Positions 17,485 through 18,328 of a stretch of 20,611 nt of DNA are shown here, one piece after another (the first letter of the stretch is position 1; each line of letters starts with the position of its first letter). The stretch is from IMG/VR virus record IMGVR_UViG_3300009103_000189, positions 1-20,611 of that record. One strand, 5' to 3'. The DNA comes from a virus. The notes beneath the pieces are model-generated. The model saw only the letters and a list, made by a program, of their open reading frames with translations. It was not told where the DNA came from and did no database searches. A program made the translations under genes and the position numbers.

Positions 17485-17598
17485 TGGTCGGGACAACCGA
17501 TTTGCAAAAAGTACCCACCCGGTATAACTCCGGCGCTATTAGGTTCCGAGTTTTATCCTAATAGACTTGGATTATCCGTAAAAGGATAACCGTGGGTT
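17485..17598 (-). ncRNA. Unrecognised 114-nt cloverleaf-like RNA ending in CCA
   Basis: It occupies one slot of the tRNA array with the same T6 spacers before and after, and ends GACCA. Folding by eye (numbering from its 5' end): P1 ACCCAC (2-7) / GTGGGT (81-86); P2 GGTTATCC (8-15) / GGATAATCC (22-30) with one bulge; P3 CTATTAGG (35-42) / CCTAATAG (56-63), perfect 8 bp with a 13-nt loop; P4 CCGG (66-69) / CCGG (77-80) with a 7-nt loop. This is a cloverleaf with four-way junction spacing like tRNA (P4 abuts P1), but no anticodon-size loop and no T-loop consensus. A 28-nt 3' tail follows, with TCGG / CCGA. I do not recognise the family. It could be a tRNA-like stable RNA akin in position to T4 RNA C/D. 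Confidence 0.6.
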
Positions 17599-17766: not shown

Positions 17767-18081
17767 TTATTCTTCCTTCTCAATTTGTCCGTACAACAAA
17801 TTAAGTTCTAACATACGTTGAACCGCAGGCATTTTACGAAAATTAATCATGTCTTCGGATTCAGGACGATAACCATAAACTTCTTTATGGACATCGGAAT
17901 ATCTCTCAACATCATCGCGAAGCTCAAGTTCATCAGCAATCTGAATTAATGCTTCGCCAGCATATGTATGACGTGATGCCTCAATGATCGCTGCATCGCG
18001 AAATGACCATTTAAATTTTTCATCAAACATCAATTTAAGTGCCGCACAATAAATGTCGTGCATAACATCTTCGTCAAACAT
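17767..18081 (-). CDS. Hypothetical protein in tRNA cluster
   Basis: 104-residue, acidic, mostly helical protein (MFDEDVMHDIYCAALKLMFDEKF, shown in part; then SFRDAAIIEASRHTYAGEAL, ending LLYGQIEKEE). ATG at 18081 with a strong GGAGG SD. It lies between tRNA-Lys and the structured RNA at 18114-18215, so that RNA is in its 5' leader and could regulate it. No motif recognised; no membrane segment. Confidence 0.8.
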   Translation of the reverse strand: MFDEDVMHDIYCAALKLMFDEKFKWSFRDAAIIEASRHTYAGEALIQIADELELRDDVERYSDVHKEVYGYRPESEDMINFRKMPAVQRMLELNLLYGQIEKEE

Positions 18082-18113
18082 TCAATACCTCCAATGAATG
18101 AAATTAAAATTGA

Positions 18114-18215
18114 GGTCTGCCTCCCTCGTCACAGGGAGGCTTCCTCTGTTGGCGATTTCGCTGCTGTTTCACCCTGACTGGTAGATGTGACGATCTCGCA
18201 GGTTTGGTGCAGACC
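18114..18215 (-). ncRNA. Structured RNA with complementary hexaloops (candidate riboswitch or sRNA)
   Basis: A closing stem GGUCUGC (18209-18215) / GCAGACC (18114-18120), 7 bp, encloses two hairpins. Hairpin A is AGAU-CGUCAC-AUCU (18183-18196). Hairpin B is GCCUCCCU-GUGACG-AGGGAGGC (18119-18140), perfect 8 bp. The loops CGUCAC and GUGACG are exact complements, extending to 8 nt with the flanking bases (UCGUCACA / UGUGACGA), so a kissing-loop is likely. CCUG / CAGG and CAC / GUG can add a stem around hairpin A, and GCG-AAAU-CGC a small third hairpin. A competing hairpin UUGGU-CUGC-ACCAA (18204-18217) breaks the closing stem, as in a switch. Lies between tRNA-Arg and the 104-aa gene. Not a family I recognise. 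Confidence 0.65.
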
Positions 18216-18251
18216 AACTACGGTTCGCGCAGGAATTGTCATTAAGTCGAA

Positions 18252-18328
<77 letters not shown>

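Follow-up and report, generated by a model that had tools for sequence, protein, structure and literature searches.

The pRNA of phage phi29 is about 120 nt long and has two hairpins with mutually complementary loops; its rings use loops that are complementary to each other and not to themselves. In T4, the stable RNAs rnaD (species 2 RNA, 119 nt) and rnaC (species 1 RNA, 139 nt) are encoded directly after tRNA-Arg, with rnaD beginning 1 nt past the tRNA. The roles of rnaC and rnaD were described as unknown in a 2010 review (PMC3014915), and both were validated by Northern blot as late RNAs in a 2022 study (PMC9697503). In a T4-like phage evolved on a single semi-permissive host, every line acquired an identical single change in the rnaD region (PMC12685909). 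GOLLD and ROOL are phage RNAs found near tRNA islands, which assemble into cages through intermolecular kissing loops (PMC12286853). Here, a structured RNA in the tRNA array of an uncultured T4-like phage, termed RNA A, is described and compared with these systems.

The DNA analysed (20,611 nt; the window) is a 20.6-kb IMG/VR fragment of a T4-superfamily phage. Its DNA polymerase is of the T4 type (best cultured match about 50% identical, in cyanophages), and UvsX, a DnaB-like helicase and a dUTPase are also encoded. Another gene has its nearest proteins in Stenotrophomonas phage DLP_6, Caulobacter phage Cr30 and Sinorhizobium phages phiM12 and phiN3, which makes an alphaproteobacterial host plausible; the cyanophage-like relatives suggest a marine origin. 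The main genes lie on the minus strand, and the tRNA array runs in the order Arg, Lys, Asn, Trp, Asp, Leu. In two other T4-like phages, L008 and L006, ROSE_3 RNA thermometers scored above the Rfam threshold (L008:14859-14924 and L006:18145-18211), directly 5′ of genes resembling small heat-shock proteins; these thermometers hint at a rhizobial-type host.

RNA A maps to positions 18112-18232 of the minus strand (about 121 nt, ends approximate) and is predicted to be a structured non-coding RNA consisting of two hairpins with complementary loops; no ORF of at least 40 aa overlaps it. Hairpin I (18150-18231) is an irregular rod of six short helices, P1-P6, spanning 82 nt, with P1 (UG.GCGR/YCGCCA) outermost and the loop CGUCAC at its tip. 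It is separated by a 3-nt spacer, ACA, from hairpin II (18112-18146), which is made up of P7 (GAGG/CCUC) and P8 (8 bp), capped by the loop GUGACG, and followed by a T-rich stretch. The initial annotation had placed a structured RNA of about 102 nt at 18114-18215. The two hairpins were found as proposed, but the RNA is larger and has a different fold, and its 5′ side extends by 17 nt or more, to 18232. Folding 18114-18215 alone yields the closed structure first drawn, but the 5′ side of the molecule is missing from this 102-nt piece, whose energy z-score on the minus strand is -2.3. The fold of 18235-18108 is different and more stable (z = -2.9, with 0 of 200 shuffles as good). The plus-strand fold of the region was rejected, its z being only -1.2.

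BLAST in related loci gave no match, and a homologue came to light on inspection of the tRNA arrays in the closest relatives. It lies at L008:6211-6334, in another uncultured T4-like phage, and is 66% identical to RNA A. The common fold of the two consists of the long irregular rod with loop CGUCAC and the second hairpin with GUGACG. The minimum free energy (MFE) structure of each sequence folded alone approximates this common structure, with hairpin I present in both. From the untouched MAFFT alignment of the two sequences, RNAalifold returned 31 pairs, with 8 two-sided changes and none broken. After two gaps were moved by hand, 35 pairs were obtained (20 unchanged, 4 with one-sided and 11 with two-sided changes, 0 broken); as the gaps were fitted to the hairpin stems and the adjustment favours the structure, both counts are reported. 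In the control, 19-29 pairs were broken when the 3′ partners were displaced by 1-4 columns. The two-sided changes are found in P1, P2, P4, P5 and P6 of the rod and at 5 of the 12 pairs of hairpin II, where none is broken. Each of the four one-sided changes swaps a Watson-Crick pair for G.U or the reverse, which is neutral only on the tRNA strand. The linker CAACAGA is conserved. Thus, the proposal of a structured RNA was borne out on the minus strand, with compensatory changes at 11 of 35 pairs of the transcribed RNA, as looked for in a conserved structured RNA. Among the elements in which covariation had been suggested as a check, the hairpin stems carry two-sided changes, the closing stem discussed below shows no compensation, and the loops are invariant and thus uninformative.

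The 5′ part of RNA A is also partially duplicated at L008:7660-7715 (and at L009:529-584). The duplicate is joined through the common AGTCCCG to the 3′ terminus of a tRNA-Leu copy, which suggests recombination inside the array.

Known families and further members were then searched for. With Rfam 15, only tRNA scored above the gathering threshold in the window, and the best non-tRNA match to RNA A at E up to 5 had E = 3 and lay on the opposite strand; no ribozyme family was matched. This agrees with the earlier statement that the RNA belongs to no known class. Together with the compensatory changes in the homologue, the Rfam result supports the assignment of RNA A as a real structured RNA outside known classes. 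BLAST of RNA A against cultured phages and plasmids gave no match. The covariance model of RNA A, R1, recovered only the two known members from 81 loci and the whole records of 20 viral contigs. RNA A was found neither in 385 genomes (one alphaproteobacterial class sample, stricter filters) nor in seven cultured T4-superfamily phages. Four degenerate DNA patterns run on IMG/VR and one on GTDB genome contigs, which as exact patterns may miss diverged homologues, gave matches outside L008 that had neither the other motifs nor the fold. A run of 82-nt matches, initially promising, proved to be one unrelated sequence family. Collecting phages through the 104-aa and 111-aa genes flanking the locus brought no additional phage. 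By comparison of the sequences, RNA A is solidly placed as a new RNA family with two members. It is absent from other close relatives and thus appears to be dispensable.

The flanks named in the initial annotation, tRNA-Arg and a 104-aa gene, were confirmed. On the minus strand, tRNA-Arg (UCU; 18252-18328) ends 19 nt before RNA A and the 104-aa gene (17767-18081), whose product is without a Pfam or PHROG match, lies 3′ of it, the full order being 111-aa gene, tRNA-Arg, RNA A, 104-aa gene. In L008 the order is 111-aa homologue, 104-aa homologue, tRNA-Thr, RNA A, tRNA-Arg, with tRNA-Arg 8 nt downstream of the RNA, and in L006 a 104-aa homologue occurs without RNA A in front. RNA A thus starts 19 nt past a tRNA and adjoins tRNA-Arg in both phages that carry it, but it is followed by a gene in the window and by a tRNA in L008. 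These gene orders indicate that RNA A tracks the tRNA array and not one gene, and the 19-nt position after a tRNA in both phages favours an independent RNA that would be processed together with the tRNAs. RNA A is therefore probably a small non-coding RNA gene in its own right, located in the phage tRNA array and acting in trans during infection. It would be transcribed with the tRNAs and probably released by tRNA-processing nucleases. The comparison of the two copies shows that it folds into a long rod next to a short hairpin rich in GC. Its complementary hexaloops could then kiss, locking the molecule or joining copies. Action in trans during infection would be as supposed for T4 rnaC and rnaD, and adapting to the host or countering host defences is the most plausible guess at the role.

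The reverse complementarity between the two loops, CGUCAC (18192-18187) and GUGACG (18132-18127), is exact and can be extended to 8 nt, as had been noted from the sequence, and in the MFE fold of the minus strand each loop sits at the tip of a hairpin. An 8-nt inverted repeat alone is weak evidence, as 5.6% of shuffles have one. Two MFE hairpin loops with at least 6 nt of complementarity, in turn, were found in 2 of 3000 dinucleotide shuffles of the window RNA, and likewise for the homologue. All six positions are complementary in both RNA A and the L008 copy, and the hexaloops are unchanged between the two while the stems beneath them vary. Since invariant loops show no covariation, a kissing contact is what we infer from them. 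RNA A thus has two perfectly complementary terminal loops, as seen in kissing-loop and oligomeric RNAs. A special form of the stand-alone RNA would be one that assembles with itself, its loops pairing between molecules to give dimers, rings or bigger closed assemblies resembling those of phi29 pRNA or GOLLD/ROOL. Loops that are mutually but not self-complementary follow the logic of the pRNA ring, and the fold suggests that intramolecular pairing may be hindered by the clear difference in length between rod I and the shorter hairpin II. GOLLD and ROOL, near phage tRNA islands, likewise assemble by intermolecular kissing loops (PMC12286853). However, bending of the rod at its internal loops could suffice for an intramolecular contact, and RNA A is very small next to GOLLD and ROOL, so that self-assembly is regarded as unlikely. 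It is likewise rather doubtful that RNA A forms a ring or closed homo-oligomer through its hexaloops during infection, as a tiny counterpart of pRNA or GOLLD/ROOL. If it did, the tRNA arrays of T4-like phages would be a general home for self-assembling, host-acting RNAs.

The switch envisaged in the initial annotation consisted of a 7-bp stem closing the two hairpins and a hairpin, UUGGU-CUGC-ACCAA (18204-18217, minus strand), that competes with it. When the true 5′ end is included, the closing stem has a base-pair probability of about 0.003 in the window RNA, where it costs 5.2 kcal/mol, and of 0 in L008. In the homologue one of the stem's 7 pairs is lost and, of the 6 retained, two persist only as G.U; none of the changes is compensatory. 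Instead, the 3′ strand of this stem takes part in the pairing GAGG/CCUC, which reads GAAG/CUUC in the homologue and has one pair changed on both sides. Both sequences could also form the competing hairpin, again with one pair changed on both sides, but it is a possible minor alternative fold at most (probability about 0.1 in the window RNA and about 0.001 in L008; 2.2 and 4.7 kcal/mol above the MFE), and its bases fit the more stable rod as well. The closing stem thus lacks the conservation, compensation and probability of a switch core, and the conserved, mutually exclusive stems of a riboswitch are not seen. The presence of RNA A 5′ of the 104-aa gene in the window, with the start codon 31 nt past the structure, and the existence of an alternative hairpin would fit a leader of this gene that acts as a riboswitch or translational switch. 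A cis-regulator would always lie in the leader of the gene it regulates, whereas in L008 the 104-aa homologue is upstream of RNA A with tRNA-Arg downstream, and in L006 it has no RNA A before it. With the proposed switch stem also unsupported, regulation of the 104-aa gene in cis is improbable, and the riboswitch part of the earlier suggestion of a riboswitch, ribozyme or regulatory RNA is not supported.

Alternatively, hairpin II and the T-rich stretch AATTTTAATTT that comes after it in the window could serve mainly to end or trim the transcript of the tRNA array, and in L008 a GC-rich hairpin followed by CGTTTTT scores as terminator-like. The window copy was not detected as such a site, a tRNA comes 8 nt later in L008, and the conserved 82-nt rod and CAACAGA linker would be superfluous for a processing or termination element, to which little credence is thus given. 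A self-cleaving ribozyme of unknown class, for which the compact fold, a putative tertiary contact and a place within a polycistronic RNA needing cuts could speak, is very improbable, as no Rfam ribozyme family was matched even at E up to 5.

Further structured RNAs are predicted in these arrays. RNA B (17513-17597, minus strand; z = -2.6) is unrelated to RNA A and lies between tRNA-Asn and tRNA-Trp. It has three hairpins closed by ACCCAC/GUGGGU, with complementary UUUU/AAAA shared by loops 1 and 2, and is about 90% identical in L006:4812-4909, where every helix is kept with little variation. RNA C was not found in the window and occurs in L002 (5648-5768), L008/L009 (L008:7757-7876) and L022 (3746-3866). 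Its hairpin CCAAAUG-AGUGGUAG-CAUUUGG has a loop that pairs with a 3′ CUACCAC as a pseudoknot, in which 3 of 7 pairs show two-sided changes in L022. Rfam searches gave no match of note for RNA B and no meaningful match for RNA C; both are, as predicted from their sequences, additional unclassified structured RNAs of these tRNA arrays. L006 also has an odd tRNA-like sequence in the place of tRNA-Arg (L006:3999-4075), with acceptor stem, T arm, CCA and a UCU anticodon-like stem and without the usual D arm. At L006:4914-5253 there is a tRNA-Leu(UAA) with an intron in the anticodon loop, group I-like by eye, which was missed by ARAGORN and at which no Rfam family reached the gathering score.

RNA A resembles phi29 pRNA in its length of about 120 nt and its complementary loops, but has no Rfam match to it and sits among tRNAs; to our knowledge, DNA packaging in T4-like phages needs no pRNA. 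With GOLLD and ROOL, in which kissing loops are abundant, RNA A has in common that it is a structured phage RNA near tRNAs (PMC12286853). These RNAs are several times larger, and RNA A has no Rfam match to either. A homology with rnaD was suspected from the common motifs AAACCG and ACAGCAG and was ruled out on the sense strand by covariance models in both directions: R1 gave at most 8.9 bits on T4-type loci and none at rnaD, and R2 gave no sense-strand match at RNA A and one marginal match of 15 bits on the opposite strand of L008. BLAST of rnaC against the window gave no match, rnaC being otherwise compared through R1 only. The rnaD core, in which one long stem comes after a 5′ hairpin, is unlike RNA A in having no complementary loops. 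In position and size RNA A is nonetheless like rnaC and rnaD, a small RNA of about 120-140 nt encoded beside tRNA-Arg where a T4-superfamily phage has its tRNA cluster. These results suggest that distant T4-like phages also keep small RNAs of conserved fold, unrelated to rnaD, at the same place in the array. Whether tRNA arrays are a store of trans-acting phage RNAs or rnaC and rnaD are a peculiarity of T4 can thus now be tested.
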